Below, in pieces: positions 17,164 to 56,322 of a DNA stretch of 64,000 nt. The stretch is from Muricea muricata (taxonomy: Eukaryota; Cnidaria; Anthozoa; Malacalcyonacea; Plexauridae). The translations under genes were made by a program, and so were the position numbers. The notes under the pieces were generated by a model. It did no database searches. It worked only from the letters and a program-made list of their open reading frames with translations, and was not told the DNA's origin. The stretch is from NCBI GenBank assembly GCA_963855995.1, contig OY979716.1, forward strand, positions 86,359,560-86,423,559. The letters run 5' to 3'. How positions within the stretch are numbered: the first letter of the stretch is position 1; every line of letters begins with the position of its first letter.

Positions 17164-20100
17164 ATGACTTCGAGGGGGCCGTATAAAAGGTATGCAGTTG
17201 ATTCTAGTGTGGATTTGCCAAGAAGGACAAATTACCGCCGAAGAAAGAAGTTATGTGTGCAAATCAATCAGGACATGGAGGGAGAAGCTGCCACGGTACT
17301 GACCAGTTCATAAAAATAACATAAATTTCGCACAAAATACGAAGGCCTGTATATAGTTATATAGTGTTTGTGTGCTGTTGGTGCTTGCACAACCGTAACA
17401 AAATCATCCTCGACTATATATGAAAATCCATGTACTCTAAAATCTCAAATCACATAATAAATTGATGGTATATATTATACAAACAATGAATGTTTATGAG
17501 TACAATGGTAAGGATATTTTCATTCAGTGAAGGATGGAATGTTTCAATCAACTTGGCTTTTGATTGGAACAATCCATGTTTCACCGAATGAAAATATTCT
17601 TACCATTGCACTAATGAAAACATTCATTTCATATTTGTTTTATGTGACACCAAAACGGAAGTTACTTTTTTTACATGACACAGCTAGCCATTTTGTTTTC
17701 TTAGTTTACTAAATAAAATTCCATCGCTCACATTGTGGCGGTACATTCATGGATTCGCCATTTAATATGCGCGGAATGCATGCAATGATAGCAGTTTGAG
17801 TGATTGGAAATAATGAAATCCACCATGTAATGGAAAGAACTATTTGCACGGTTCCATTGCACGATCCTGAAAATGGAAATTTCTATTTTACATCACGTGA
17901 TCGTAAATAGCCAATTAAATCACGATAATTTAACAAGGGGTTTATAAACCTATTTATATTACAGTATATGAAATATATTCAATAGGTTGAAAACCAAACA
18001 GATGGTGTTAATAATACAGACACTGAATTTGTGGATATGCCTGCATACTGTGATGCAAATGAAAGAATTAAGGTATTTCTACTACTTTTATACAAATCTA
18101 TTTCACAAAAGATGTGATCCCTTAAATAACATGGTTGTAATACTTCCTTAACTCGTACTCATGTGTTTGATACGATTGAACACAATTAATTTTTAATAAC
18201 TGATTTATATGATTGATGTTATGGTTAATTTAGAATGCAGACAGGTTCATCGATGATGTAGATTACATGAATACAGATTCAGAACCTGAAGAAGAAAATA
18301 CAGAGTCGGAAAAATCTAGTGATGAGGTAATGCTTTGCCTCATAATTATTTGAGTTTTTCAAGATTAGATGACATAAAGTTTAATTATCACAACTTTTCT
18401 TGTGTTGTATGACCAAGTACTTCTGATAGAAAAGCTTTCAGTACTTGTTTTTGTAATATATTGCATTATGCAATTAGAGGACTTCATTTGATTTTTAGGT
18501 ATTAGATCTCAGAGATGCTGATGAATTTATTTTTCCTGGTGCATATGTGACTCGTGCTCAAATTATACTTTTATTGGTTGCATTTCTTTTGAAACACAAC
18601 TTGACGGATGCAGCTTTGGTAGACTTGCTTGGAATTTTAAATGTGGTGTTGCCTAATGTATTTCCTCCAAGCAAGTATAAGTTCTACAAGTGTCTTCAAG
18701 TAGAAGACTGCCAGGCAAGTAATAATGTATAGTAATAGTTGAATTGGGCAAGTAATGGTTCATGGCAGATGTTAAAAATATCTGATATCTAATAATATGA
18801 ATATTTTGATTGAACATAGTGCCATTTGTTAACAAAATTGTTGCATAGGTAATCTGTTTTCAATCTCACAATCATACCGGACAATGCTGTTGTAATGAGA
18901 AGTACAGCTTATTGCATGTTTAAATCCTTCAGGACTTTGTTGGCAACAAATGAATCTTTACATTTCACAAGCTCATGCAGGTATTCTTCAGTGATTTTGT
19001 TCTATCCAATTTAAGGAATTACATGTAACACAGTATAAGCTACAGTATACTTCTTGTAACACCAGCATCACACATGCATGGATGTGTCAACAGAACAGTT
19101 TCATTGAGCAGTCATCAATTTTGTTGATAAGATTAAGTGGCAAAAATGGCAAAATATTAATATTATTGAATATATATGACTGTATTAATATTATAGAAGG
19201 GTATGGAAAGTTTGTCAGTTATTTTCCTGCATCTCAGTGTAAATGAGAAAGTTTTACCCTGAGAGATAAGAATGATCTTTTTTCCAAATACTCTGAGATG
19301 CAGGTATATGTGAAACATAGCAACTGGTAATAAGCAGGATATTTTTAAAGTCAAATATCCTATTTGAGGTATCTCAAAGTCAAATATCATGCCTCCAAGA
19401 AAAACCACAGGTATAACGTTTCCATGGCATGATATTCACTAAAAAATACAATGGACATGTGGTCCAAAAGCTGCCTGTTGATTGGACAGTCCAAAAATGA
19501 GGTATCACAATATATCAAAAGTATTTTTCATCATTTAGACATAAAAACACATAAACGTTTGACATAAAAACTTCTTACTTCTCAAACTACATTCTCCTCA
19601 GAGAAGAATGATGTATGGATATTTCTATTATGATAATTGCTGTTAGAATTTTAACACTGTACTGTAATCATTTTGTTCTTTATTTAAACCCCAGTATCAT
19701 GCATTATACTAAATGGGCAAAACTGTTTTAATGTATAATATGAAAGTTTAAAATTTTAGGTGCATTTCTACTGTGCGTTATGTTTGGCATACATGGGAAC
19801 TAGCAAGGAAAAAAGAAATTGTGAAGAGTGTAATGTGCCATTTGATTATGATGCTAGCATCAAGGAAGGTAGCTTTTTCCTCCATATCCCCTTGGAAAAC
19901 CAACTCAAACAACTGCTTTCTGATCCAGAATTCTACAAACTCCTTACTGATCGAAATTTGGAAGTTCTTGCTCAATCAAACGAAATATCTGATATAACAA
20001 CTGGTGAGCTTTATCAAGACCTCATAAAGTCACATGGTTTGTCCAAGAATGATATTTCCCTTACCTGGAATGCAGATGGTATTCCAGTATTCAAATCATC

Positions 20101-21805
20101 ACAGTATTCCATTTGGCCTGTGCAGTGCCTGATCAATGAGCTCCCCCCGCACCTTCGATCAAGCAACATTTTGCTTACAGGACTATGGTTTGGTAAAACT
20201 AAACCGAAAATGAACACATTCTTGGAAGCATTTGTCAATGAATGCAAGTACTTAGAAGTAAAAGGATTTTGCTTTGGTAATGAATCTATCAAGCGTAGAG
20301 TATTTGCCCTCATTTGTTCCAGTGATAGTCCTGCACGAGCTATGTTAAGAAACTGCAAGCAGTTTAATGGAAAACATGGATGTGACTGGTGTGAGCATGA
20401 AGGTGTCACAGTTGTCAAAAACGGAGGTCCACCCACCAGATATTACCCACAGCGGGGTTCTCCACCTTTACGAACATCAGAAAACCAGGCAAAATATGCC
20501 ATTAGAGCTGAACAGCTGAAAGAAGCAGTCAAGGGTGTAAAAGGACCATCAATAGTTGATCTCCTCCCAACCTTTGACATGGTGAATGGCTTTACTCCTG
20601 AATATATGCATTCAGTGTGTCAAGGAGTAATGCGTCGCCTTTTCGATCTTTGGTTTGATGCTGCTAACCACAATGAAGATTTTTACCTCGGTAAAAAAGC
20701 AGTAGAGGTTGACAACCGGCTGACTTCAATTAGTCCTCCTTCTGAAATAACGAGAGCACCCAGATCAATCAAAGAAAGAAAGTTTTGGAAAGCGTCTGAA
20801 TGGCGAGCATTTATGCTCCACGGTCTGGTTGTCTTGAAAGGCTTATTACCCAGGGTATATCTTCAACACTTCTTTTTGTTTGTGTATGGTGTGTACAATC
20901 TCCTTGGCGACAAAATTACCAATGGCATGCTTAAAAATTCAAAGACATGCTTGGTTAAATTTGTTTTTGATATGGAGAGATTATATGGCTTGACGTCTTG
21001 CACTTTTAATGTACATCAACTGACACATTTGGCAGATGGTGTGAAAAAATGTGGACCCTTATGGGCGACATCTGCATTTGCATTTGAAGCAAATAACCAC
21101 ATGCTGTTGAAGATGTTCAGTGGGACACAATATGTACCACAACAGATTTGTGATTCATTCATTTTATCACAGAAGGTATCTGCTATTGAGAGAAATTGTT
21201 TCAAGGACGATACAAATCCTCAAGTGAAGCATTTGTTCAAAAAACTCGCTAATAGAAATCTGCCAATTAAAAAACAGCATTTTCTCACAAACAATGTGTA
21301 TGGGCTGGGAAATGGTAAGCCTGTATTTCTGACAGCACGTCAAACAATCTCGGTTGCATCAATGATCGACAAAGATATTTTGAATCGTTCAGCCATCGTT
21401 TACGACCGTTTTATAATCAATCACGTCCTGTATACTTCCCAGACCTACAACAGGTCACGCCGACACTGCGACTTCTTCGTTCGTGTTTCTGAAGCTTCGG
21501 TCAAGTATGGTAAAATTGTTGGCTTATACTCCATAAAACCTGATTGCCAGTGCACCAACACTGATATGCAATCATGCCAATGTCAAGTTCATCATATAGT
21601 GATTGTAAAGGAACTTGTGGGCACTGCTGGTTCACTCTTTTCCAACAATGAGTGTGGAGCGTCATCGCACTTTCTTTGTGAATACACAGAAACTGAGCAA
21701 ACAGTAGCTATCAAACCTGAACAGCTACATATAAAGTGCATTGCTTTAAAAGGCAGGAATGGAAACTTTGTATGTGAAATGCCTTGTCGGTTTCATGGAG
21801 ATTAA
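17164..21805 (+). CDS. TNP2-type transposase (EnSpm/CACTA-like), five exons
   Basis: Exons 17164-17295, 17986-18072, 18234-18326, 18499-18714 and 19760-21805. All introns fall between codons, giving an 857-residue product. Intron 4 uses a GC donor (CAG|GCAAGT). The N-terminus is basic (TSRGPYKRY, RRTNYRRRKK), followed by acidic exons. Exon 4 and the start of exon 5 hold a Cys-rich segment (CLQVEDCQ / FYCALCLAY / CEECNVPF). The long exon has the transposase_21/TNP2 pattern: WNADGIPVFKSS, LTGLWFGKTKP, a GKHGCDWCEHEG finger, and HQLTHLADGVKKCGPLWATS. A C-terminal Cys-rich stretch (CQCTNTDMQSCQCQ) follows. No stop or frameshift is visible, so it could be functional. It would bind the subterminal repeats and cut the ends. 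Confidence 0.85.
17484..17632. repeat. Inverted-repeat MITE in transposase intron 1
   Basis: ATGAATGTTTATGAGTACAA at 17486 is mirrored by a matching arm ending in ACATTCAT near 17626. The arms continue through GGATATTTTCATTCAGTGAA and its complement. The element is non-coding, about 145 bp, and nested in the 690-bp intron. Confidence 0.7.
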
Positions 21806-29453: not shown

Positions 29454-30994
29454 ATGATGTTCTTTAAACTCACAGTTCTGACAGTTCCGTTAACAATGAA
29501 TCGACGAGCGATAATCAAGCTCCATCCTTTTCCTGGCGAGAAAACTGACCCAGACACCAGACAGGAATGGACACGACTTGTGAACCGAAGAGATCCAAAC
29601 AATGACAAGAAAGTATGGCAACCAAATAAGAATTCACGGGTTTGTAGCAGTCATTTTGTTGACGTGAAACTGACTGAAGCCAATCCCTACCCAACACTAT
29701 ATCTTATACAGCAGAATGTCAATGCTCGAATCCCAAAAAGTAGAATGCGTCCAGCTGAACGAAACCCGTGTCAAAATATAAATAAAGCTAGAAAATCAAG
29801 GCTGGCGGATGGCCATGTCAGTGCAGAGCCAGAGAATGAAACTGAACAAATAACTAATTGTGACACAAGCCCAAAAGATTTACCTGATGTACCTAATGAA
29901 CTGGGTGTTGAAGGTAATTCTGGTGAAAAGGAACATTTTCCACTAAACTGCAAGGGCTGTGGCTTCAAGACTAAACAGCTTTTGCACATGGGAAATTGCT
30001 TGTAGAGAAGAAACAAAGCAACTGGATAGCTTAAGAAGAAAATTTTGGCTCAGGGAAAGAACTCTTTTGGCCATCAAAAGTTAGTTACTGATAAAAAAGT
30101 TAAGTTCTACACTGGTATTCCCACCAGGAAGGCATTTGATACTTTATACCAGTTATCGCTACCAAGGGTTAGGGAACTTAAGCGTTGGCATGGACCATCA
30201 AAAGTATCATCTCCACTAAAGCACTTATCAACAACCCCTCCAAAAAAGGCTGGGGACACCGTGGTAAGGACGAGTTCTTATTAACTTTGATAAAATTGAG
30301 ACTTGGTATTCTAAATGAGGACCTTGGAGATCGATTCAACATTTCCGCGACAACTGTCTTAAAACATTAACTACATGGTTTTCATTCCTCTCTGCAAATT
30401 TGGTCCCGCCTTGTTGTTTAATCCTTTAAAAAAGGCAGTCCAGTTAATATTGCCAAAGTCATTTAAAAGTATAGTTTATCACAATGTAAGGTACATTATT
30501 GACTGCACGGAGATTTTTATTGAAAATCCAAAGGATCTTCAACTACAAGCCCTCACATGGTCAGACTATAAGCAGTGCCAAACTGTAAAAATTTTGGTTT
30601 CCATTCTTCCCACTGGATTTTGTTTCAAAATGCTTGGGTGAAAGAATGTCAGACAATCATTTAACAAAAAATTGTGGCTTAGACATAGTTGAACCATACG
30701 AGTGTCATGGCTGATAGAGAGTTTCAAATACGCGAGGATTTGTTATTACGAAGAGCAAATTTACATATACCTCTTGGAAGGTGTGGAACAGATCAAATGT
30801 CAAAACACGATGTGAAGAATACACAAGAAATTGTTAACCGTAGAATATATGTCAAAATGGCAATAAGAAGATTAAAATCATTCAGAATTTTAAAGTGTGA
30901 ATTACCTGTAACTCTTTTAAGCCAGATTGACGATATAGTTTGTATTTGTGCAGCACTATGCAATTTATATCCACAACTGGTAAGAAAAGAATAA
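29454..30994 (+). pseudogene. THAP / DDE_Tnp_4-type transposase (ISL2EU-like), broken
   Basis: The first block (29454-30005) has the C-terminal two-thirds of a THAP finger: LHPFPGEKT, W near the middle, SRVCSSHFVDVKL and a trailing P. The initial Cys pair is missing and may lie in an unseen exon. After a spacer, 30045-30370 carries a helix-turn-helix (TLIKLRLGILNEDLGDRFNI, then SATTVLKH) typical of HTH_Tnp_4. The segments 30375-30641 and 30689-30994 carry DDE_Tnp_4 parts (YIIDCTEIFIENP with the first catalytic Asp, then a later ADREFQI). Three frame breaks separate them. It is a different family from the GDGRxDSPG transposases elsewhere in the window. Confidence 0.72.
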
Positions 30995-36159: not shown

Positions 36160-37701
36160 ACTCACGATATTACTTGTATGAGATATTTAGAGCATTGCTA
36201 TTCATTAATACTTACGAACATCAAAACAAAGTTGTGAGAAGATCTTTACCATGTTGATATTTGATGTTAGTCACATAACTGAATATGGCGTTGTTCCATA
36301 TTTCAGGTGGACCACGCTATTAGTTTTAAAAATATGATAACACGACAGGACATCGTTTTTAACTTAATTGGCAGTGGAAACGACATTCTTTAACCACAAA
36401 CAGCATAGGTAACAACAAGAGAATGTTTTAGCTAGAAAATAAATGAACTTGGTGTCATAGTTGAAGGATTTTTCAAAGATTACGTGGAACGGTGCAAAAG
36501 AGGGATTCTGGACTTCTAAAATGGATAAGAATGCGAGGTATTAGGCGTTTGAAGGAGAACTGTTCGTAAATTATCATGATCAACGTCTATCAACATTTTG
36601 AGAAAGTTTGCTTTGCCATATATCTTCAAAACTAGCAATGATGGATTTCTGGTAAGCAATAATAATTCTAAAAGTATCTCCACTGCTGTCGTGGAATAAA
36701 CGTTTGGCACTGGATTGAGACAAAAATATGCTTGAGAGCACAAGTCGAGACCGACAAGACAGACAAGTCGAGATCAACATGACAATTCCCTAATGCTGGA
36801 AAAGGAACTTCTGATGAAAGGTTTTAGGTACCTGCCAAAGAAGTGGTAGAACGATCATTTAGATCCGTATTATTAGCAACCAACATGTCTTCATATGTGC
36901 CCAAATGTGCAAAAGAGATCTCTGATCCCTATTTCCGCTGTTACCAGCAGAACTCGTTTACGTTAGAACTTTTTTGTTGACTCCTTAGCCTCGCTGGTCA
37001 CATATCATTGAATATCAATAATCTAACCCATGCATGCATTTTCCAAGCTTTATCATGCTGATTTCGTCTGCCCGTCAAAAGGACAAACTTCTGTTGTGCT
37101 CTCAAGCATATTTTTGCCTCAATCAAGTGCCAAACGTTTATTCCACGACAGCAGTGGAGGTACTTTTAGAATTATTATTGCTTACCAGGAATCCATCATT
37201 GCTAGTTTTGAAGGTATATGGCAAAGCAAACTTTCTCAAAATGTTGATAGACGTTGATCATGATAATTTAAGAACAGTGCTCCTTCAAACGCCTAATACC
37301 TCCCACTCTTATCCATTTTAGAAGTCCAGAATCCATCTTTTCCACCGTTCCACGTAATCTTCGAAAAATCCTTGAACTATGACACTAAGTTCGTTTATTT
37401 TATAGCTAAAACATTCTCTTGTTGTTACCTATGCTGTTTTTGGTTAAAGAATGTCGTTTCCACTTCCAATTAAGTTAAAAACGACGTCTTATCGTGTTAT
37501 CATATTTTTAAAACTAATAGCGTGGTCCACCTGGAATATAGAACAGCGCCATATTTTCTCAGTCATGTGACTAGCATCAAATATCAACATGGCAAAGATC
37601 TCCTCACAACTTTGTTTTGATGTTCGTAAGTTTTAATGAATGGCAATGCTCATTTGGAATACGTACGGCATAAATATCTCATACAAGTAATATCGTGAGT
37701 C
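36160..37701. mobile_element. Foldback element (long imperfect palindrome) inside a transposase exon
   Basis: Arms of about 620 bp (36160-36785 and 37045-37701) are reverse complements over nearly their whole length, starting ACTCACGATATTACTTGTAT. A ~260-bp unique spacer separates them. The element interrupts the transposase frame between EVNLLYS and YVNNLQIG, where CACTGT occurs on both flanks (36153-36158 and 37703-37708), a partial duplication. The arms contain matching frames in both orientations but no recognisable protein. Confidence 0.8.
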
Positions 37702-42299: not shown

Positions 42300-42871
42300 C
42301 CATTGTAAACAAATATACCCACGTTTTTGACCCCTCATGTTTTTGAATTGTTTGAAGATTGAAATGCAAATATCATTCTTTTTGTATCTCCGAATGCAGA
42401 TATATTGTTATCGTGCGCGTGCTGTTAGCTGTTACTGTTAGCTTGTAGCCAATCACCGAATGCGTAAATTAGAAATAGCCAATAGTCGAGAATATAACAT
42501 TAAAATGACGTATTACTTAATGATCATTCAGACCATAATATGTTTAACTGGAGTGATTTTCCAAATTCTAAAATGGCGTGTGCCAAGACTGTTAAAGAGT
42601 GAAGAGTTAAGCCAAACTGGACAAGGACTGCTAAGGTTTATTGAACTGAAGGCTTTTCGTAGCGTGACTAGATGTTCTATTTCTATTGTAAATATGTCTA
42701 AGCAAGATGATGGTTCGACAACTGGGGAAATATTGCATCGGTTGTATTACCATCTGTAAATTACAACAGTCAACAAACCGATTTGACAGAAGCAGTGACA
42801 TTGATACAATGATAATAAAGGTACAATAACAACATGGACTACATGTATGTAATTTTTAGGAGTCCAGTTAA
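42300..42871. other. Unassigned sequence before the MULE
   Basis: No recognisable coding region; the frame at 42460-42759 has no family resemblance. The last ten bases (42862-42871, GTCCAGTTAA) are the left target-site duplication of the MULE. Confidence 0.5.
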
Positions 42872-43178
42872 GGGTAAGGATAAAACGCGGATACGGATGC
42901 GGAACGGAGCGGATTGACGGAACGGATATGAGGATAAAACGCGGAGCGGATATGAGGATAAAACGCGGAGCGGATATGAGCATAAAACGCGGAGCGGATA
43001 TGGGGATAAAACGCGGAGCGGATATGAGGATAAAACGCGGATGGGTTGCTTTTTTGTTTAAATCTTTTTCGAAAACATGTTATGGTACTTGATAAAACAG
43101 AATTCGCTGCCATGTTTCAGTTGATTTAAATGGGTTGGGGAATTATGTAGACCTGCTATCTCTATTTTTTCAGATTAT
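42872..43178 (+). repeat. Left TIR of the MULE with internal tandem array
   Basis: 307 bp. From about 42925 to 43031 it holds five copies of a 24-bp unit (core GGATAAAACGCGGAGCGG). The inner part (ATGGGTTGCTTTTTTG, then AAATCTTTTTCGAAAACATG) is shared with the right TIR down to TAGACCTGCTATCT and AGATTATT. Confidence 0.92.
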
Positions 43179-43380
43179 TGTGTATATTGAGAGTATTGAC
43201 TCTAAACCTTTTACTAGTCCCGTATTCACCCTGTGTTAGAAGTAGTCTACCGAAATGCGACAATTACCCTACACTGACCGTTAAGGTTTACCAAATATTT
43301 CTTTGTGCCGCTACATTTTATATTACCTTTGTCAAAATCTTTATTATCTGTTTTCAGTTAGACAGTTACGGCAGAACACC

Positions 43381-43564
43381 CAGGGCCGTCGCTGAAACGT
43401 TAATTGGGGGGGGGGTGTGCATATTCATGTCTTCATATTCTGCCCGACGAGTTTCTTTTCAAATGATATTCAAATTTCTCAATTTGAAAAGAAATCTGTC
43501 AGGCAAAACATGAATATATGAATAGGCGCCCCCTCCCCCAATTAACGTTCTAGCGACGGCCCTG
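43381..43564. mobile_element. hAT-like MITE with poly-G/poly-C arms, 8-bp TSD
   Basis: The ends are CAGGGCCGTCGCT and AGCGACGGCCCTG. Each is followed inwards by AACGTTAATTGGGGGG or its complement. AGAACACC is repeated exactly on both sides (43373-43380, 43565-43572). It is non-coding, 184 bp, and nested in the MULE. Confidence 0.88.
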
Positions 43565-43954
43565 AGAACACCCGTGTTTGGGCATTTAATGAAAAGTGTC
43601 CAATGAAATATTTGAAACATTAAAATATTAAAAAATCGTTCGTTTGTTTGATTACTCTAGCTATTGTTCAAATTGTTCAATAAAATAACAATATTGGCAC
43701 AGAGTAGTACTCTGTGATATTGGTGTTTAGTATTCTATAATTACAGTACATTATAAAACATTTACTAACACAACGGCATTGGTCAGAGTGTCTCAAAGAA
43801 AACTTAACGCCCATGAATTAACTAATTATTATAAAAAAATAATTGTTAGACGAACTTAACGTATTTATGAATTTAAAATGTACACTAATTAATATGTATG
43901 GTGGGGAACACCCTGTAATTTACGTTTAACATGAAAACGCTACGGTAAAATGCT

Positions 43955-44118
43955 CAGTAGCGTAGCCAGCCCGACGAATTAGTCCCGCTATGCAAATATT
44001 TTCCTGTTCATTGACTGTGAAAACAATTAATGTCTAAAGAAATAAATAATGATAATAATTTGAAAATAACTTGAAATTTGCATAGCGGGACTAAACTGTC
44101 GGGCTGGCTACGCCACTG
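43955..44118. mobile_element. hAT-like MITE with 8-bp TSD
   Basis: CAGTAGCGTAGCCAGCCCGA and TCGGGCTGGCTACGCCACTG form the ends. They continue inwards through TAGTCCCGCTATGCAAAT and its complement. The flanks AAAATGCT and AAAATGAT are a one-mismatch 8-bp duplication. Confidence 0.88.
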
Positions 44119-44126
44119 AAAATGAT

Positions 44127-44345
44127 TGTTCATGGTAAAAGCAAAAATACCAATCTGAAAAACAAAACATATCGTGATAACTATACGTAACTACTGTATA
44201 CTTAATAAATTACGAGCAATAAAGAAACCTATACAGTGTTAATATTTTATACACTGCATGTGCACTATCAAATGTACTTTTTAACATATCTGCAGGCAAT
44301 ACTAAACAGGGGTTAGTTGGCATTAGCTACCAATTTTCGGACAAA
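44127..44345. other. 3' flank of the MULE gene
   Basis: AT-rich sequence downstream of the gene's stop codon (the gene is on the minus strand). No other gene is visible between the MITEs and the stop. Confidence 0.5.
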
Positions 44346-47300
44346 CTAAAATCGTACGCCAAACTCACGTAGATATTGTAGGTGAACTGGCATCAAGTAT
44401 GGTGTTAAGCTCGGCGGAATCTGCACCATTGCTGGAGCGAAGTATGGTTGCTTTCTCTTTATGCAACTGGCTTCCACGTGAAAATAAACATTACCAGTTC
44501 TTGACATGAGCTCTCCGTTGGGTGTTGCACGAAACTGACGATTCATTTGCGTTATAATGGTCATGTCGAACGGAGGGTTTGCAATTTTACCATCAGGCTT
44601 TAATGTCTGAGAACATCCAAAACAAACGCGAACTAAGTGCGGGCATTGTGCCAGAAGACCAAGAACGAACATGCTATTAGGTTGCAACGGCGGAGGGCTT
44701 GTGAAAGCAGGTGGGCGTAATAGATGCTGGGCGTGAGGTCCAGGCATGGAAAATATTTCTGGCGTAGAGCCGGTTGTTGAGGTTATCGGCGGCTGTGTGC
44801 AGGTACTGGTAGCTGTAAAGACTGCCCTATCAATCGTAGTCGAGACAGGTGCCTGGCTTCTCGTTCTTCCACCTTTTCGCCTCGCAGTTGAATTCTTAGC
44901 ACCCTTTCTTCCAATGCCTGCAACACTGTCGAATGTTACTAGTGAGGTAACATTCATACTTTTGGGCCCCTTTTCACGTAGCCATTTTAAATATCTGGCA
45001 GTAGTACCAGATTTTTCCGCGACAGCAATAGCATGAGCGCAGATATTAGAGGCTCTCCAGCCTGGACAATCTTCACATTTTATCTTTCCGTTTTTCGACA
45101 ACGTGACAAAATGCGGTTTGTCAGACGTCCGGCTTTCGACAACGAATGCTGTATTATCTTGACAACCGGGTGCTTGCTGAACGGATCCTTCCTTGCCAAG
45201 AAGAGCCCTTGCCTTGTCACCAATGCCTTTCAACATCGCTCTTGGAATTGATGCTATGCCAGAAGCCAGCTGGTCGAGGTCGACAGACAGACTTATCTGG
45301 TCTTGTGGACTGCTAAGATGTGTGCCATTGTTGGTCGTATTTGAAACCACATCATCAGAATCTGACATCTTCGCAGCATGAAATTTTTTTAACGCTGATT
45401 CCTTTTGATTTATGTTCATTTTGAACCAAGATTCTGATGAAACCTGGAAAGATGAAAAATTTGATGCCAAACAATAGGGACCATGATTAAGGATAGAGGA
45501 GTCGATATCTTCTTTTTGTTGGAGGAGGAAAGTGCTTAGATTTTCGCAAAATTTCGTCATCTCGCTCTCTTTAAAATTCACCGCACGCTTGATCATTGCG
45601 TTAGCTGACTCCGGAATGTTGTTGTAATACGCGGTGGGAGGATCACCCAGACCTGCATGTCGGCGTACGTCTTTTAACATTGACTTAGCTATCATTGCTG
45701 CCTAAAAGATCACAAAAATTTAAATGGTTGACAATATGTGTGGAAACCTAATATAATTGTATATTCTTGAGCTGCCTTCCTAAATATATTTTCGAATTTA
45801 TACGATGATTTCAAAAGTATATTTGAAAAATCATTTTCCAATGGTTGTTTTTACCGCAAAAAGTGAATTACGAAAAAAATCAATGCCAACCTTTTCTTGA
45901 ATGTAATCATAAAAAGCAGGCTTAGCCCCGCTTGGTAAGTACTGTTTTTCTTTGTCATTCCACACTTTCTTCACTGCTGATAATCTGGATTCAAAATCAG
46001 ACAAGTCATCAGCATCAACAAGACCTGAAAGAGAAATTCCGCAATCATCGAAATATATTCTGGTAAATCATGTATAATTTAATTGGTTATCTTGTCATTG
46101 CATGTTGTACACAAGATTTACTACGTTTTTACATAAGCTCGCAATCATTTGTAACTATTAACGTTGGCAAGTTCTGCAGAAAAACAGGTTGAGCTTTTTC
46201 TTTATACGCTGTGATAAATTCCCTTCAAGGCTATGGCAGTCTCGTTAATACACATTTTCGCTGTCTATTCATTTTAAAAAAACTCGCAAAAAGATTTGCT
46301 CCTCAACTATGGGCTATGCGCAGTATAAAAACAAATTACAAAATTACGCATTTTTATATATATATATATATATTTATTTCAAATTAATAAATAAGGTATT
46401 TAGTAAGTCAAGAGTGTACAGGGTAGTGGTGATTTTTAGCTTAAAAACAAGCGTTAAGCTGAGACTTTCCAGAACAATACACTTTTCCGGCCGTTACGCG
46501 AGCTGAAGGATCACTAGCTCCGTATTAACGGGGAGAGATTGGCCCCATTAGTCCCGCTTCCACATAGGTGTGACGTAGCTACCGGAAAGGTCTATTTGGT
46601 TACAGGCAGATAATTGTACCGCATAATGACTGTTTCTTTTTTATGGTGACTTACCTTTCTCCCAAGCATCTTCCACACGACGTCCAAATACATCATAAAG
46701 AAACTCCTTTTGTACCTGTTCCGGGACGTTTGATGCTTTAAGTTTATCCTTACAGTTGTCGCGAAAGTGATTGAAACATCTTAAATGAAGCGCTTGGGGA
46801 AAGCTGAAATTCATCGCTCTATACAACTCTTCTTCGCCGTCAGTCCCATATGCCAAAACTCCTCTTACATCCTTATTCAGACTTACCAATTTGCTGAAGA
46901 ATTGATTGTAAGCATCAAATGACTTTGTTTGGCTAAGAAGAATTGGGCCGACTAGAGTAGGATGGCCACCGGTTTCTCTGTTTACCACTTTCAGATGTCT
47001 GAATGAGGTAACTGTAACATTAAACCTGCCAAGGTTGAATGTCGGGTCAGCTCCAAACACAGAAAATGCAGAAGGCTCTGTGCAGAAGGTGGCTAGATCT
47101 TGCAGCTGCCAATCATAAGCCAAAATACATCGCAGCTCTGGAGCACCTGTAACCTCGCGAATGAACGGTTCGACATTTCTTTCCATTTGTTAGCGTTTAC
47201 ACTGCTCCAAGAGAATGATTAGGGAGTCGGTCTGACTGAAGGATCTCTTGTCAGTGTAATCTCGCCTTCGATATTTGGCTTGCGCACGGTTTCGTGGCAG

Positions 47301-50300
47301 ATCGCTTATTGACGATGCGCCCATAATTCCTCCCACATCCCTTTGTACCTCATGGTAAGCAGCTTTTGGCGTTTTATCGGTGGACTCAGTTCGTAACATG
47401 TTGACAGTGCTTTCTTTCGTCCTCACGTAACTGGATGAATGCGACCGCTTACAGTTACCATGTTGAGATGGCGTAACGTCATGCTCGATGCCATCGAAAA
47501 GATACTGAATGGTGATCAACTTGGGGTGCTCTAAACAGATTTACAGTAAACGAGAAAAGTAGATTTAATCCGTCGATCTGGTCATTCTTTTGTATGGTTC
47601 TAATCGTAGATGGTGCTCTAGTTAGACTCTTAATGTAGCTTTCACCCCTGTATGTCAAAACTTTGCAGTTTCAGTTAACATTTTGACTTTAACCTTTTTT
47701 AATTAGTTGTATATGAATCGTGCTATTATCTTACCTAGCAAGATCGAAACGATTTTTCGTAAGTCGGGAGATGATTTATTTTTATAATAAGTCCTCTTTA
47801 TGACGTAATGATTTATTCCATCTGCCAAAACGTCATTTTTATCTATTTGAAATACTGCATCATTCTCCATACCCATGCAAAAGTACTGAACACCATTGTT
47901 TTTCCATACACCCATGTCATCTGATTTCCAGTCGTTGCAAGATTTCAGCGAGTCAACGTCTACCATAAAACATACATTGTGCGAAATGTTACTGGGCACT
48001 GCTGAGCAAGTAGTTCCATTATTTCTTGGTATGAGCAGCTCTTCCAGTATTTCTAATGGGCTTATTACGTTCTTCCTCCAAGAAAACACTGGCAAGTTTT
48101 CTCTTCCCTTATATAGCTCTCCAACTTGACTGCAAAATAGAATGTATACAATATGCATTATGTGACAAATCAGTTTAAATGCCTTGCAAAGCCTCTTAAA
48201 AGTATGTTGAAATTAGTAGCTAACGCAACACATAAATATTAGTGTTTTGCAATTAATTTAGCATTTAATACTAACTGTTTCTTTTTTGAGGTATGTGACT
48301 GCCCGTTTTCAATAAAGTCTATACCATCTTCACTTTCTGAACTTAAATTTATTGCAATCGTCTTCCTGAAAGATAATTTTTGTCATGACACTTTATGCAT
48401 GAGTCAAATCCAAGCGTGCCCATCCCCCCCCCCGGGCCAACCCCCGGGCTTTTGACAAATTTTTAAAATACGTGGTTAATCTCCGGGGGCGGGGGTAAAA
48501 TACATGTGAAGATGCCCCGCAGTGGGGCAAAAAGTTTTCGCAAATTCCCCTCCCCGCGGACACCTGAAATCTGAAACCCTAAATCCAAATTGTTTTTGAA
48601 ATAGGTGTAATAATTCTGTTTATTTTATGCTTCGTAAAATCATATATACGACTGTTGAATTAAATATATATATAATTTATACGAAGCATAAAATAAACAG
48701 AATTTATATTACGCATATTTCAAAAACAATTTGGATTTAGGGTTTGCACACAGTCTAGCGCGTTATTATAATATTCAAGATAATATCCAATACAGTCTAA
48801 TTACCAGTACCACAAACAATAAATAGGGACATTATTTGGAACCTTCTTTTATATCATAACATATTGGCATATATTTTGATATTGTGTGAAACTGGTTTGA
48901 TTATGTTGTTTTGTACTATTATTGGTTCTAAAATAATAGAATCATCATTTCAAATGCCCCACCCCCGGGCAAAGGTTCACACGCAAATACCCCTCCCCTG
49001 GGACGTACTAGGCATGCAAATGCCCCGGGGTGGCTCGGGGAGAATGGGCATCCTTGGATTTGACTCATGCATCACTGTATATTTTGGAAAATGTAACTAT
49101 CAATGTAATACATCAACCAGAAACCAGACATTAAGAATTCTAGTAAGTATGAGTTACACATACTTAGCGGAGGATCTATTCAAGTTTAAAGAACCAGGGC
49201 CTTGGAAATCGTCTCCAGATGAAGAATCCACAGTTACCTAAACAGGAACAAAATATTCGCAGTTAACAGTCAACATTTTGTCAAACTAATGGTTATCAAC
49301 GACATTTATTTAATAATGTACATGCATAGTTGATTTTTTGTAGGTACGGTAAATGATCTTCGCGGCCTTTGCTATAAATAATAAAGTTCATTTAAAAGGG
49401 GCGCCTAAAAGCAGCGGCACTTATAAAAAATGCGTACTAGACTTGCTTACCTTAATTAATTCAGTGAAATATTACATAAAATGAATAACACAAATTGTTA
49501 TTTATGATCGATCGCCGTGAACAATGTTGTTCATGTGTTCCGATGTTACCCATTCTGGAGCGCCGTTTACTAATAAATTCATAAATAGTCTCGTGCTGGT
49601 TCGCAGCTCATATACATTAAATTTGTATTCTGCAGAGATGCAGTGCTTATCCGGCTGCGGCGCATTCTTGTACGATTAGCGGCAGGGCGCTTATCGGCGC
49701 TTGGTCGATCATTTACTAGAAGCAGAAATTATATTGCCATACATACTATCTCTGTATTAGTTATTGTAGCTGAACATTCCGTGATCTCTGTCACTGTTCG
49801 AAGAGGAGTATCACTTTCGCTTTGGCAGTCAATTTCAATATCAGCCGTCATGTTGTATAAGGAACTACAAAAAAATTGATACAGCCTATTTTGACAATGT
49901 TAACAAGATTGTGATGAGATGTTAGCTAAACAGGTCAACTAAGCTTTAGATGTCAACATGCGTGACCTTGTAAATAACATCATCCGCTATACGAGTTCTG
50001 TAAACTCCTTGCTTACCTTCCAACAGGTTGATGGCCTTCAGTCAGCTCATGAAATTCTTCAGCTTCATCGGGCTCGTTAGCATCCACATGAGTCTAAAAA
50101 ATCAAGAATTTTCCAGATCGAACAATTGTAATCACTCATAAAAATGCGAAAAGTCCGACTGATCGAATCGCTCTGCGTTGTCTAGGTCTTTAATACGCAC
50201 CTGAACAGTTGTCTGACCGAAAATGGCGAAATCTCCTAAGCTTCCAGGCATTCTTTGGGGCAATGTTGTCTTGTCGTCTTCTGGTTGGGTTTTTCCTAAG

Positions 50301-53049
50301 TAAGTGGATAAAATCATGCAGCAAATAAATGAAAAGAAACAAAATGAAAATTTGAGTAAAGTATTTGATGTACTGCTTAAACTAGGGATCCAAGGATAGT
50401 GCAAAGTTTCACAAGTCAGACAAGTGTGATGACTGTCAGTACTCAGTAATATAGCCGATACCTTTGAAAAAACATTTAAAAACTTTCTGCTCTGCAAATA
50501 GAAAATGTATTTTTAAAAATTTCAAAACCTTTCAAGTCGAGTCTTTTGAATATGCGAACATACAATTTCATCGCAAAGTATGACATCGAAACCGTTTAAG
50601 CATCATTACCTTTCAATCTTTATTAGACTCTAAATAAACTTTTAAAGTTTTCAAAATTTTCTCCTTTGGCTTGCGCACGTTCACAAGCACAGCAATGCTG
50701 ATGAACAAGACTGATCAATTCATATTAAGCTCGGTTTAATTTGATGTTTTTCAAGGGAAAAATCCCTTTTTATGCATAGTAAACGAATAAGTAATTGTGT
50801 AGACTAAAATATCTCGTAATGCCGGTTAAAATGGTGTTTTTAGTCAGAAATATCACTCATGTTTGCGACCCACTCCTAGAGACCGACATTTTATAAAGGC
50901 TATAAGCGGCGCTACGTGTGGTATTATACACGTGCTTCGCTGAATGATTGAGATTCCGGGGGTGTTTGGCAACACTGTTATGTACATATGCAATACAACT
51001 ATAAGAACGATTACTCTCATTAGATGTGATAGTGCTTATTCTAGTCATTTTGATTAAAACCTTGTAGAGATAATATTCAAGCAACTGCTCAAAATTTTTA
51101 CCACCCCCCGGAGTTTACACTATGACTGACTGACTCACTGCCTGCCTGACTGACTGATGTAAATTTTCGCCACTCATCACAATACTGCAAAGTTTCTTTG
51201 AAACTTTGCACTAAAAATTAAGATATGTTTTCAATAAATGAATTGACAATAAAAATTACAATGAAAAATTCATTGTTTGATTCTGTTTCAATTTACCTTG
51301 TCGTGGTGTCAGCCATATAATACTCTGGCTTTGATTCTGCTTAACTCCTGCCATTTTTAGTCGTTGCAACAGCCATTGTACGAGTGACTTGCACGATCTG
51401 TAGCTCACGTCTGGAGTCACTAACAGAATGCCGTTACCATTCCCTCCAAGCTCGCCACCAACTGGATGAGTGTCAACGAGAAAAAATGCATCCTCACACA
51501 CACCTATGCTAATGATATATGGACTGCAGGTATAGATTCCCATGTGTAAGTGTCCTTGCAATGTTCTTGACATCAACGTTTCCATTATTTCCTCTCTTCC
51601 AGCGGACGAAAATACTTTGTTCATGGAAACACATCCTTCGGACAGATCATAGTCTGTATAGAGCAAGTTATTGGTTGACAAAATAGAATGCGCTTCTTCA
51701 ACATCGTATAATTGGCCAACATCACGGTGATCATTTACTTGCCTAGGAAGATGAGTGACTACACTCTCGACAGTTTCACGCACGTTTTCCCATTGCATTC
51801 GTTCACGAAGGTCACCATTTTGCAACAATCGATCGCAAACTCCAACAGAAAGAAACGCACAGGAATTACTTGCGTCGTTTATTAGAAGTGAAACGGGTTG
51901 GTCGTTCAATGAAGGCATGCCATCCTGCAAAACTGCAGCTAGTTGAGCATCACACTCCTCCAGAGCAGTACTTTGACTGATTGACAAAGGAAAACGACGA
52001 AAAAAGTTGTCCAAACTCTTGTCAATAAAGGAAAGTAATTCTGCTGTTGAAGGTCTTGCCGTAGCATCAAATTTGGCACACTGGTTGAACATATCTTCAA
52101 TTTGCCACCACGAAGTAATCCATAGCAGCTCATATTTCGGACTGTGTTGAGGCAGTTGACGTTTTTTCAGAAGATCTTTCAGTGCAGCGTTGGTATCTGA
52201 AATCCCAAATTTCTCTAATTCAACTCGATAAGGACTACCAATATCAGAATTTACCATATTATGCATAACAAGTCCTAAGGACCACACATCAGCTCGTTTT
52301 AGATCGTCTTGGCTTGCTGAAACCAGTTGATTTAATTGCATTTCTGGAGCCATGTACGCTGGGGTACCACAGCCAATTGCAGTTGTCTGGGATGCCATGA
52401 TAGACTTGGTTTGAATGTCAGCACTACGACTAAGCCCGAAGTCAGTTAGCCGACACACAATTGGGCACTCCCCAAAAGCCTTTTCCAAGGCGGCTTGATC
52501 ATTACGAGATATAATGTTTAAATGTTGATTACAAACCAAGATATTGCTAGGTTTTAAATCTCGATGAGCGATGTTATGATTGTGCAAATAATTCAGCCCG
52601 GAAAGAATATCTTTAGCACATACTGGTAATAAATCAGCAAACGATGTAAAATTGAACTCCTCGTCCACAAACTGTAGGAAGTCACCAAGAGAACTCACGC
52701 TTTTCTCATCATCTCCGAACAAGCCAAAATCAAAACTTGAAAATTCCATCATTATTGAGTGCGGCTCGCTGCAAAACCCCAGGAATTTGCTAATGTTAGG
52801 GTGGTCTTTGACGCTATTTAGGATCTTAGCCTCTTTTACAAAGCGTGTCTGGGAATCGATAGAAACACTTTTAAGTTTCTTAATGACGACATTTTTCGAA
52901 GTATTTGCATGTTTGGCAAGGTGAACAGAACCAAAGCTTCCAGACCCAAGCTTTTTCGTTTTTACTATACTTGCCCACTCGAATTTCGGCAGTTCAACAT
53001 CATTCTTTTGTTTCCGCACAAGTTTTGGAAGCTTAAAGCTTCTCTCCAT
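44346..53049 (-). CDS. Kinase / C76-like peptidase / MULE transposase / SWIM fusion gene, 10 exons, one in-frame stop
   Basis: Exons (minus): 51298-53049, 50201-50295, 50017-50093, 49747-49864, 49164-49237, 48276-48365, 47735-48129, 46655-47530, 45891-46024 and 44346-45701. All nine introns are GT-AG, every junction keeps frame, and the total is 4968 nt (1655 codons plus stop). Kinase: LGSGSFGSV 34-42, Lys 57, Glu 73, HRDLKPSN 162-169, DFG 203-205, APE 234-236, so all catalytic residues are present. Peptidase-like: NSCAFL (Cys 397), then FFLVDTHPVGGELGGNGNG (Asp 526, His 528). Exons 2-6 encode acidic linker. The MULE core is in exon 8 (FGADPTFNLGRFNV, YGTDGEEEL), and exon 10 carries the SWIM finger CEDCPGWRASNICAH. 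TAA at 47190-47192 interrupts exon 8, with ATG six bases on (47184-47186). The kinase/peptidase part may be made alone. The role in transposition is unknown. Confidence 0.82.
46655..47186 (-). CDS. MULE DDE transposase core (part of the fusion gene, after the in-frame stop)
   Basis: From ATG 47184-47186 the frame MERNVEPFIREVTGAPEL leads into the catalytic domain: SAFSVFGADPTFNLGRFNVT holds the first DDE Asp, LLSQTKSFDAYNQFFSKLV follows, and GVLAYGTDGEEELYRAM holds the second Asp. The HLRCFNHFRDN block is typical of MULE (PF10551-type) transposases. The third acidic residue should lie in exon 9-10. The exon ends at GTAAGT (46654). Being intact after the stop, it could be translated separately if an internal promoter or reinitiation is used. 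Confidence 0.82.
48397..49072. mobile_element. Inverted-repeat element with nested palindrome in an intron of the MULE gene
   Basis: The outer arms GCATGAGTCAAATCCAAG (48397) and CTTGGATTTGACTCATGC-type (ending 49070) are followed by C-rich/G-rich stretches. The 8-mers CACTTTAT (48389-48396) and CACTGTAT (49073-49080) are a candidate duplication. Inside, 48571-48747 is a second long palindrome (AAACCCTAAATCCAAATTG ... with arms TTTATTTTATGCTTCGTA). It lies in the intron between exons 5 and 6. Confidence 0.75.
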
Positions 53050-54748
53050 TTTCAACTAGCGCTCACAATGACAAATAGCTAGTCACGGTACTCCATTTGC
53101 TGTACACCTCAATGGCCGTAAAAACAAGCTGTTGCGTCAAAATTTTGATCATATATCGTATCATTCAAATGCTAATGCAGAGGCAACACCTCTGCTCGAG
53201 GTGTCACCTTCAGGCTCTAATTATCATATTTTACTGTAATTGGATTATTGGGCCCCCGTTGGTTTTGACGCAAAGTATATGGATTTCAAGCCATATGCTG
53301 ATTAGCGTTCATGGCACCTTCATCATTGAAAAGCTGCCACAAAGCAGAAAACCGGTTAGCTTTTGCATGCCGTTATATTATATCGCATGTGTTTTTGACA
53401 CGAGTAAGCAGATGGCTGCTCTAAACTTAACTTTCCCGATTTTCAAAATAATTACAGCTAAAGTTTATTTTCGCTAACAATTAACAACTTGCCATGCGAT
53501 CAAGTTACTTATCGATTATTAAGCTTTTGCGAGGGCATTTTTGAACCCATGCTTAGTACGATATTTTATTGCTCCATGTGTTATAAAGTAAATATCAGAA
53601 GGTCTATTGATGGGAAGTAAATTCGCATATTGGCGAAAATTTCGGGTGTGAAAAAAAATCGCAAGTTAAAAATCACTAACAGCTGCAGGCTGTAGGCTAT
53701 TATTAACTTTGAGAACACGCGTAAAATGCTAGGCGTTTAAGTATAGTAATTAGATTAGGAGCAATTTGCTAAACATAACGTGTTTATCTCACTTTCGGAA
53801 AAAAACAAAAACAAAACAAGAATTTGTACAAAACTTGGTAGCCCTGTTGTTACAAATGTTACTAAACGCTTTCACCCCACTTCATGCATGTGTTGACATA
53901 GGAGCAAGCATCAAACTATAAACACATGTTTGTGGGAATCATGAAACATCAGATATCTTGCTCCACTTTCTCTTACTAAACTTTGTATTTAACGTGTAAC
54001 GAGCCTAGCTAACACTACACACAACGTGGTCTAGTTCCAGCTTGCTTTATTTCCTTTTACATTATCTCTATCCCTGGGGTGTTGCTCTTCCTTTCATTAG
54101 TTGTGGAGGTATATTTGATGTCTCACGGATGCAGCTGCATCCGGTACAATTACAGTGAAACCCTTCTTATTGGCCGCCTCGACAATATGGTCATTTTTTT
54201 GTCCAGTTGAAACACAATGCATTTTATTGACTGCATTGATAAAAGTCATCTAAAACTTGTAGGCTTCAGTTAAGTGCGTAAAGCAAAAGAAAAAATCAAA
54301 GGTTTTTGGTAACCAAATCCTGATATTGTTTCGTTAGTATTACTTAAAGCTTTTTACGACTTTATCTAGTAATAGTAATTGGTATTATGGTATGGTGTTG
54401 TTGTTGTGCTTTTGAAATATTTTTTAACATGGCTTTTACGTCATAATTGAAACTTTATATTATCCTGTTAATAAGGCCACATTATTTCAGCTCGTTGGTG
54501 ACCGTAATAAACGGGTTCCACTATACTTTACCTATTCACTCGTTGGTTTTAGTCCATTATCATACGTCCGATACATACGATTATACATTTGTGTATTTTA
54601 TACCAACAATTAAGTTTATTTATATACTCTCAATATTTCCATAATTTATGCATTATTTTAAAATAATTTATGCATTATTTTAATTTGTATCATCTTTGGA
54701 AACTGCACATCTAATTTGTAAAGAAATGTTTTCACTTTTTAAAGACAG
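53050..54748. promoter_or_regulatory. 5' region of the MULE gene, presumed promoter
   Basis: About 1.7 kb between the kinase start codon (minus strand) and the right TIR. No gene is visible. An open plus-strand frame at 53097-53477 shows no family. Being the only non-repetitive upstream DNA in the element, it or the TIR should hold the promoter, but no motif is decisive. Confidence 0.4.
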
Positions 54749-54749
54749 A

Positions 54750-55040
54750 ATAATCTAAATATAGATAGCAGGTCTACATAATCCCCCAACCCATTTAAAT
54801 CAGATAAAACATGGCAGCGAATTCTGTTTTATCAAGTACCATAACATGTTTTCGAAAAAGATTTAAGCTTTAATTCGCACAAAAAAGCAACCCATCCGTG
54901 TTTTATCCTCATATCCGCTCCGCGTTTTATCCTCATATCCGCTCCGCGTTTTATTCTCATATCCGCTCCGCGTTTTATCCTCATATCCGTTCCGTCAATC
55001 CGCTCCGTTCCGCATCCGTATCCGCGTTTTATCCTTACCC
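54750..55040 (-). repeat. Right TIR of the MULE
   Basis: 291 bp, the reverse complement of 42872-43178, with four instead of five 24-bp units and a 12-bp insertion beside the TTAAATCTTTTTCG-type block. Confidence 0.92.
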
Positions 55041-55050
55041 GTCCAGTTAA

Positions 55051-56322
55051 CTTGTTTAAAACGGTTTTGAGTATACTGTATGTTTTGATGGATGGGCTTG
55101 TTGTTTTCATTATGTGCATTATGTTTCCCTAGTGCTTGCAGTGTACACTTGCATTATCTAGTATTTGTCTGTGATTGCACTTATTTGGTACACACTTTAT
55201 TCTTGTGTACAATTTCTTGAACTTCATGTGCTTTTGAATAGTCAAATTTGAGAATTTTTCCTCCGATTTATTTTTAAATGTATATATCATGAATAGAAAC
55301 CGTGTACCAGCACTTAGTATCACTCATGCTCAAAGTCTATTAATGCTTAGATCTGAAATCTGAATAATAGGCCGACACTTTTCCTTGGGTAGTATTCTCA
55401 GCTTAAGTCACCTTATTTGTTAAATCTGAATCACCAGCATTTCAATTAAAACAAAAAATATTCATATGAGACAAAGCTAATTTTGCATGAGTGATTGATG
55501 TAAAATTGGTCACCAGTAAATCATAAATTTTGGTTGCACAGGGTTTATAAAAAAAGTACACCCTTTGAAGTAGCTGCAAATTTGATTAACTGCAATCTGT
55601 TGCATTAATTTGACAGTTCAGAATGGCTCGATTCGAAGGTCACTTAACAGATTTAATTCATTCTAATTTTGAATACACCTTGATTATCTTTAACAATGTA
55701 ATGAATTACAAATTCACATTTTTGTACAGCCTGTTTTGTTTGCTGAAGTTATTCTAATTTTTGCTGATGTGTATACAATCATGCGTTTCTACGTATATAT
55801 TAATTCGACTGATTTAAAAAGCATTCCAAACTACTTTTTTATACATCCTGTAGTAAACCATATTTGTAAAACTAAAGTTATTTGATTTATGCATTGTATA
55901 CTCGACATGCATTTTTATATCGATTTTTAAAAATAACAGTTAATATCCATTAATATCCATTCAAATTTGGTTCCAATAAAATATTTCAAGTATTTACTTC
56001 TGAAATGATACTGTTATCAAAATTTTATGTTAATCATTTCATGTTTTTATTAAAAAGTTTATATTATACAGTAATCATTTCAAACACATTGGACTATTTA
56101 TTTCAATATTTATTGCAATCATTCTACTACATATTTATGCTGTGCGCAGCTACCTGCACGCGTAGCGTACCTTTTTCGCAGATACATGTGTTTATCACAA
56201 AATCCGAAATCAATTTGCAAGCGAGAAAAATTTCACTGGCTTTGAAGAGAACTCCTCAGACTTGGACTGACAATTTGACATTTATTGTAACGTAATAAAT
56301 TTTTACATCAAAATCCCTATTT
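55051..56322. other. Unassigned AT-rich sequence
   Basis: No gene is recognisable. If copies H and G are one split transposon, the missing ballast exons would be expected here, but no C-x-C-G-x-C cluster is found. ACGCGTAGCGTACCT near 56158 is the third instance of a short dispersed motif. Confidence 0.45.

Follow-up and report, generated by a model that had tools for sequence, protein, structure and literature searches.

Deubiquitinase and protease domains are already known from transposons. VTD-type deubiquitinases occur in Helitrons and in cnidarian genes, and most of their non-viral homologues lie in Helitrons, which are rolling-circle elements; the main text describing them also reports Helitrons with VTD and OTU domains, mentions cnidarian VTDs fused to transposon-associated domains, and puts forward the idea that these enzymes spread through transposons (PMC9741609). 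Among Mutator-like elements (MULEs) of animals, Ghost includes cnidarian members, and the cnidarian MuDR-6_HM is tabulated with an 'Ovarian Tumour Gene' (Table 1, PMC6446971). In plants, Kaonashi/KIU Vandal MULEs acquired a Ulp1 protease domain long ago that is conserved across the clade and whose function, according to a review, is unknown (PMC13317346). Here we analyze a 64,000-nucleotide stretch of the Muricea muricata genome (GCA_963855995.1, contig OY979716.1, C1:86359560-86423559; hereafter the window) that holds a structurally complete MULE of 12,169 bp. We read it, with a probability of roughly 0.85, as a member of a lineage that carries a kinase and a VTD-type deubiquitinase-like domain as the N-terminal part of its transposase gene.

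Whereas the known VTDs reside in Helitrons, the domain in the window lies between a predicted kinase and a MULE transposase, in an element with terminal inverted repeats (TIRs); the words 'MULE', 'Mutator' and 'kinase' are absent from the main text of PMC9741609. With the animal families Phantom, Ghost, Spectre and Muta, as characterized in PMC6446971, the element shares a MULE transposase, TIRs, and duplications of 8-11 bp, and its SWIM-like motif may be a counterpart of their zinc motifs; it differs from them in having a kinase, a word absent from that main text. Compared by its table entry only, MuDR-6_HM is likewise a cnidarian MULE with an added domain of the deubiquitinase class (OTU in that case), and no kinase is listed for it. 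Kaonashi/KIU Vandal elements, as reviewed, are similar as MULEs with an old, acquired protease-type domain, but their Ulp1 is encoded in one of three separate genes, their hosts are plants, and they are non-TIR elements without a kinase. As in Pack-MULEs, MULE ends surround host-gene-like sequence; Pack-MULEs are described as having lost the transposase (PMC6446971), whereas here it is present and the kinase appears old and shared. In the literature searched, which lay mostly outside subscription journals, supplements and Repbase, we found no kinase-bearing MULE, nor the predicted arrangement in which a kinase precedes a VTD and both are fused to a MULE transposase, within a TIR element flanked by duplications.

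The mobile unit and its copies

A preliminary description of this DNA had taken the inverted copies at 42872-43178 and 54750-55040, abutted by the identical decamer GTCCAGTTAA at 42862-42871 and 55041-55050, as the limits of a complete MULE, and had suggested aligning its two ends. The alignment shows outer arms (42872-43017 and 54895-55040) that are 97% complementary over 146 nucleotides (nt) and inner arms (43058-43167 and 54757-54866) that are 95% complementary over 110 nt; the two TIRs differ in length because a 24-bp tandem unit is present in about 5.2 copies on the left and 4.2 on the right. From base composition, 0.14 copies of the decamer are expected in the window on both strands. A third copy at 30438 has unrelated flanks and was rejected as a chance occurrence. 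The left flank is itself a dispersed repeat (genome search, best 40 of 115 candidates scored), and the two flanks, joined through one decamer, run uninterrupted elsewhere in the genome (best 40 of 114 candidates scored). The best of these empty sites (L059) is 99% identical over 240 of 240 bases of the joined flanks, while another (L060) has an ungapped join with 5 mismatches in 240 and holds the decamer once, intact; the single decamer was read directly in L060, not in L059. These paralogous empty sites, found in other copies of the target repeat and not, as had been proposed, in other individuals, show that a dispersed repeat received the 12,169-bp unit and that this insertion made the 10-bp duplication. 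Such a duplication, with its empty site, lies within the 8-11 bp typical of MULEs, and TIRs of about 300 bp that recur in the genome are likewise typical.

Further copies with these ends, which the preliminary description had also asked for together with 9-11 bp duplications, are plentiful: in the 453-Mb assembly (74 contigs), the left TIR gave at least 44 matches (best 40 of 233 candidates scored). Among 20 stretches fetched, 15 contain both ends of one copy, two (L022 and L023) jointly form a sister element, and three (L019, L026, L028) have one usable end each and were left out of the duplication counts. Duplications of 9-10 bp with at most one mismatch flank 12 of the 15 pairs, seven of them exact (L011, L013, L014, L021, L024, L025, L027) and five with one mismatch (L009, L010, L016, L017, L018); two more have two mismatches in 9 (L015, L020), and the remaining pair of the 15 compared (L012) has no duplication at its ends. 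The window element covers 98-100% of L009, L018, L020, L021 and L025, 86-87% of L012-L015, and 70-73% of L016 and L017, so these 11 pairs are its internal-deletion derivatives, six of them with added sequence (13-30% of length not matched by the window element). L021, a 3.4-kb derivative with an exact 10-bp duplication, keeps the first 342 kinase residues at 99%. The sister element (18.3 kb, C1:83311640-83329906) matches the window element at 99.2-99.4% over 8,287 and 3,851 bp and carries the same genes, with about 6 kb of extra sequence separating the kinase exon from the remainder, a kinase frame broken near residue 307, and the duplication ATTAAATTAT, read by eye. Deletion derivatives and a second full element thus share these ends with the window copy.

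In the four other pairs (L010, L011, L024, L027), the window element covers just 26-36%, and these hold other transposons. L011, L024 and L027 are 5.2-kb copies with 98.8-99.7% identity to one another, and a separate 9-10 bp duplication flanks each; L011 contains a Tc5/CENP-B-type transposase open reading frame (ORF) between the MULE ends, and this nested transposon therefore seems to have been multiplied by them. Within the MULE ends of the 7-kb copy L010 lies a LINE-type ORF that encodes an endonuclease and a reverse transcriptase domain. These foreign transposons look like nested insertions; they are not the unrelated unique host DNA that would have counted against the proposed mobile unit.

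A nested short inverted-repeat element in the window copy (43381-43564; Table 1) is absent from the derivatives L009 and L018. Two further inverted-repeat stretches within the MULE, 48395-49072 (containing an inner palindrome, 48574-48745) and 43954-44119, are probably nested elements as well.

Predicted gene and its relatives

Ten predicted exons on the minus strand, from 53049 to 44346, join without a change of frame into 1,655 codons including one stop, and all nine introns are bounded by GT-AG. A frameshift near 47500 was considered and rejected, because the frame continues across an intron that has an AG acceptor. The C-terminal half contains a MULE-type DDE transposase, its DDE residues judged by eye only; the same protein matches Transposase_mut at 0.012. 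Given this transposase, the element is not a Pack-MULE, in which a host gene fragment lies between TIRs without one. The structure of the element is complete, as had been claimed, but its predicted transposase frame is interrupted by one in-frame stop in exon 8; further movement would therefore need protein from another copy, and the window copy is probably not autonomous.

Used as a query with X at the stop, the joined product gave 118 proteins among the 7,997 best candidates. Two are fused relatives: P0064 of the gorgonian Paramuricea clavata aligns colinearly to residues 233-1655 (40%), and P0065 of the sea anemone Exaiptasia diaphana aligns in the same order to residues 25-578 (34.6%) and 647-1309 (24.8%). 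For the remaining 116, whose listings name kinase domains, coverage of the query does not exceed 20%. A third gene model, P0057 from Paramuricea, joins a shortened kinase to a transposase. Paramuricea belongs to Octocorallia and Exaiptasia to Hexacorallia, two anthozoan subclasses, and the same order in gene models of both argues for a kinase of the transposon as opposed to one of the host. P0064 scores similarly to the window product for the MULE domain (23.1 bits).

The same linkage recurs across the genome. Kinase matches (at least 76, with 73 of 413 candidates scored) merged into 65 loci, and matches to the transposase C-terminal region (at least 135, with 94 of 778 scored) into 88. A transposase lies within 20 kb downstream on the same strand at 22 of the 65 kinase loci, the window copy and its sister included, and upstream or on the other strand within 20 kb at none of the 65; random placement gave a mean of 0.30 linked loci and a maximum of 3 in 2,000 trials. 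Two of the 22 share one transposase, and kinases at linked loci are 35-100% identical to the window copy. A search with the VTD-like C-terminal domain of the kinase ORF (72 of 72 candidates scored) gave 58 matches at 43 loci, 23 with a transposase downstream and none with one upstream or opposite; a listed kinase match lies within 3 kb at 28 of the 43. With P0064 as query (at least 50 matches, 32 of 1,036 candidates scored), transposases were seen by eye 4.4-5.1 kb downstream of three more kinase loci. These transposase relatives (C1:36171736, C1:68989151, C11:8792527) have open frames of 1,014-1,188 amino acids (aa) and are apparently interrupted by fewer introns than the gene in the window. 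Among the 22 linked loci, those with a kinase closer to that of the window also tend to have the closer transposase (correlation of identities, rho 0.51, p 0.015).

At 17 of 17 loci, which form about nine groups of near copies, the kinase exon has a conserved end followed by a phase-1 GT donor. As a control, a loose form of this test was passed by 53% of codons elsewhere in the same stretches and a stricter one by 7.9%; all 17 ends passed the strict test, whose letters had been chosen after the ends were seen. The kinase is best read as exon 1 of the transposase gene. The preliminary description had argued against a host gene and left two options, cargo carried by the transposon or a piece of the transposon's gene; of these, the second is better supported. 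Strong support from these predictions goes to ten exons spliced into one product of about 1,655 codons, ordered kinase, VTD-like domain, acidic linker and MULE transposase.

The linker contains SUMO-interaction-like motifs in the window (VTVDSSS, INLSSES), in P0064 (ITLSSES) and in P0057 (ITIDDSP). Since this loose pattern also matches elsewhere, as in the kinase of P0065 (LEILDSD), the motifs are only a lead. The SUMO-interaction motif pattern, like the roles of DDE and HRD/DFG residues, is general background.

Kinase and VTD-like domains

The kinase ORF (51256-53055) encodes a kinase domain (8e-41) and a second domain of about 200 residues; named homologues of its C-terminal part come from Paramuricea clavata. 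The kinase protein P0001 had no match in the PDB at 1e-20, while a slightly longer ORF gave 181 PDB matches at 1e-9, of which the 60 shown are kinases of many groups. Conservation was assessed in 27 kinase loci, the best-scoring ones, which were left after 3 duplicates had been removed from 30 fetched. Lys57, His162, Asp164 and Asn169 are kept in 27 of 27, and Glu73 and Asp203 in 26 of 27; the residue taken as that of the glycine loop, position 35, is G in just 17 of 27, with gaps among the others. The catalytic Lys, HRD Asp and DFG Asp are thus kept in 27, 27 and 26 of the 27, the pattern expected of an active kinase. In the VTD-like domain, Asn395 and Cys397 are kept in 20 of 20 covering loci, Asp526 in 18 of 19 and His528 in 19 of 19, which agrees with the catalytic Cys and invariable Asp-x-His given for VTDs (PMC9741609). 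Comparison of a predicted structure likewise points to a papain-like VTD fold, and in this model the fold is that of deubiquitinases. The comparison (VIA-align) covers only the chains ranked highest by Foldseek; from the eighth row on it lists kinases, aligned to a region that was modelled with low confidence.

Constraint was estimated by a simple count of nonsynonymous to synonymous change (dN/dS), separately for the kinase and the C-terminal part. The lowest kinase values are 0.14 for L041/L042 (C-terminal part 0.05), 0.26 for L035/L036 (undefined) and 0.27 for window/sister (0). Other pairs gave 0.52 for sister/L038 (0.55), 0.53 for L044/L051 (0.60), 0.57 for window/L038 (0.61), 0.61 for L040/L046 (0.14) and 0.89 for L031/L047 (undefined); for the kinase, L043/L048 gave 0.54 and L054/L056 0.81. 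L036 and L037 are identical over the whole fetched length and therefore uninformative on limits. In the six distant pairs compared, synonymous sites are saturated (proportion of synonymous differences, pS, 0.75-0.86), with nonsynonymous differences (pN) of 0.21-0.35. This is the usual picture of a transposon gene, long-term constraint with decay of individual copies.

The kinase copies L035, L036 and L037 are free of stops, with a 630-aa frame. About 0.9 kb upstream of them lies a GGGGAAC-type minisatellite, possibly the TIR of another kinase-MULE family (upstream sequence read in L035 and L036).

Alternative readings

Several observations weigh against a single kinase-VTD-transposase gene of a MULE lineage. 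The gene structure is predicted from DNA and no transcript was seen; linker exons 2-6 rest on splice signals and on a frame selected for openness; and P0064 and P0065 are automatic gene models, which can merge neighbours. The MULE match (PF10551; 1.2e-4, 22.8 bits) is under the curated cut-off of 27.6, as is that of the SWIM domain in exon 10 (PF04434; E 0.045, 13.7 bits against 19.6). Among scored matches, 40 of the 65 kinase loci have no transposase downstream, and no kinase or C-terminal-domain match was found upstream of 61 of the 88 transposase loci overall, or within 20 kb upstream of 30 of the 46 longer than 900 bp. Such transposase loci may represent kinase-free lineages or decayed copies, or may have partners that are too diverged or ranked below the scored matches. 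The correlation of kinase and transposase identity is lost without the three closest loci (19 loci, rho 0.24, p 0.32). The structure model is poor overall (mean pLDDT 57.5, with 262 of 597 residues below 50, mostly in the kinase half). For the VTD-like domain, sequence searches gave no PDB relative beyond one chance match (E 0.72) and no convincing Pfam family, and one weak tegument match (E 0.005) appeared in 1 of 11 members. Several pairs of recent kinase copies show weak constraint (dN/dS 0.5-0.9).

The alternative that survives best, at odds we consider low, is that the transposon carries a kinase-VTD gene and, independent of it, a gene for the transposase, the two being same-strand neighbours and inherited together. 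The kinase ORF reaches its own stop 13 codons past the donor, merged gene models could mimic a fusion, and the derivative L021 retains just part of the kinase exon. Set against this are the donor shared by all 17 loci, the continuous frame across ten exons, the joining of the same two blocks by P0064 and P0065 in two subclasses, and the constant order and strand of the linked pairs found.

Somewhat less probable still is a protease role for the VTD-like domain, which would then cleave the fusion product so as to release kinase and transposase from each other, the halves acting apart. Its position between the two and the retention of Cys397, Asp526 and His528 would suit such a role, but its predicted fold is that of deubiquitinases, VTDs for which tests are reported act on ubiquitin chains (PMC9741609), and no cleavage site was identified.

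We regard recent capture of a host kinase by a MULE, as Pack-MULE-type cargo without function for the element, as very improbable. MULEs are described as carrying host gene fragments (PMC6446971), and the 30 longer transposase loci without a detected kinase module would fit; yet the kinases of the 22 linked loci, down to 35% identical, keep one order, which is shared with a gorgonian and a sea anemone, their catalytic residues are kept, and the six distant pairs combine saturated synonymous sites with far lower pN. That the TIR-like repeats are unrelated to the enclosed genes, MULEs or repeats merely lying beside host kinase genes, can be practically dismissed, despite the 40 kinase loci without a detected transposase, as the empty sites show that the whole unit was inserted, and as the kinase exon travelled along in both the sister element and L021, each of which is flanked by a duplication of its own.

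Possible function and significance

If kinase, VTD-like domain and transposase indeed form one product, the transposase half would bind the 24-bp repeats of the TIRs and cut and paste the element. By analogy, the VTD-like domain would most likely remove ubiquitin and thereby spare the transposase, or the host factors on which it relies, degradation or ubiquitin-dependent silencing, and the kinase would set how active that complex is. We see about even odds for such a helper role, with the VTD-like domain protecting and the kinase regulating the transposition complex. The authors describing Helitron VTDs similarly suggest protection of transposition proteins from proteasomal degradation (PMC9741609). 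More tentatively, and with the odds somewhat against it, this may be an old anthozoan lineage in which kinase, VTD and SUMO-binding linker motifs jointly license the transposase and keep ubiquitin- and SUMO-dependent silencing away from it or from its target chromatin. If true, this would be a transposase with its own post-translational control, undescribed in the literature searched.

That gene models from two subclasses join a kinase and a MULE transposase in one constant order, with catalytic residues kept, suggests that the element gains from phosphorylating something. It raises the question of whether a transposon uses a kinase and a deubiquitinase of its own to control itself or its host. 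In public records, P0064 is named 'Mitogen-activated kinase kinase kinase A', P0065 'High affinity nerve growth factor receptor, partial' and P0057 'Tyrosine- kinase SPK-1, partial'; since such loci bear host-gene names, counts of anthozoan host kinases may be inflated.

Feature coordinates and other observations

Table 1. Features of the MULE and its target site, in window coordinates.
Feature	Position	Strand	Remarks
Dispersed target repeat, left part	42379..42871	none	extent judged against L059 and L060
Target site duplication, left copy GTCCAGTTAA	42862..42871	none	abuts left TIR; single copy in empty site L060
Left TIR, ~307 bp, starts GGGTAAGGATAAAAC	42872..43178	+	recurs in genome
24-bp tandem array in left TIR, ~5.2 copies	42918..43041	+	putative transposase binding sites
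Nested short inverted-repeat element, 184 bp, ends CAGGGCCGTC, 8-bp duplication AGAACACC	43381..43564	none	not original MULE
Exon 10 (predicted): transposase remainder, SWIM-like zinc motif, conserved C-terminal domain	44346..45701	-	52 proteins at E <= 0.001
Exon 9 (predicted)	45891..46024	-	matched by P0064 930-978
Exon 8 (predicted): MULE catalytic core, in-frame stop 47190-47192	46655..47530	-	PF10551; 68% identical to P0064 over 178 aa
Exon 7 (predicted): transposase N-terminal region	47735..48129	-	44% match to P0064 residues 517-638
Exon 6 (predicted): motif INLSSES	48276..48365	-	ITLSSES in linker of Paramuricea P0064
Exon 5 (predicted): SUMO-interaction-like motif VTVDSSS	49164..49237	-	
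Exon 4 (predicted): acidic linker	49747..49864	-	GT-AG and frame only
Exon 3 (predicted): acidic linker	50017..50093	-	GT-AG and frame only
Exon 2 (predicted): linker	50201..50295	-	GT-AG and frame only
Exon 1 (predicted): kinase (P0001 residues 30-339), then VTD-like domain (~350-582; Cys397, Asp526-x-His528)	51297..53049	-	phase-1 donor at end
Right TIR	54750..55040	-	inverted copy of left TIR
24-bp tandem array in right TIR, ~4.2 copies	54895..54994	-	
Target site duplication, right copy GTCCAGTTAA	55041..55050	none	abuts right TIR
Dispersed target repeat, right part	55051..56189	none	continues left part 42379..42871

Elsewhere in the window, a 681-aa ORF at 19760-21805 contains a Transposase_21 (tnp2) domain (E 1.2e-8) and a 183-aa ORF at 29454-30005 a THAP domain (E 2.1e-8). 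At 36190-37651 lies a large near-palindrome with ends GAGCATTGC and arms of 462 and 93 nt at 94-95%.

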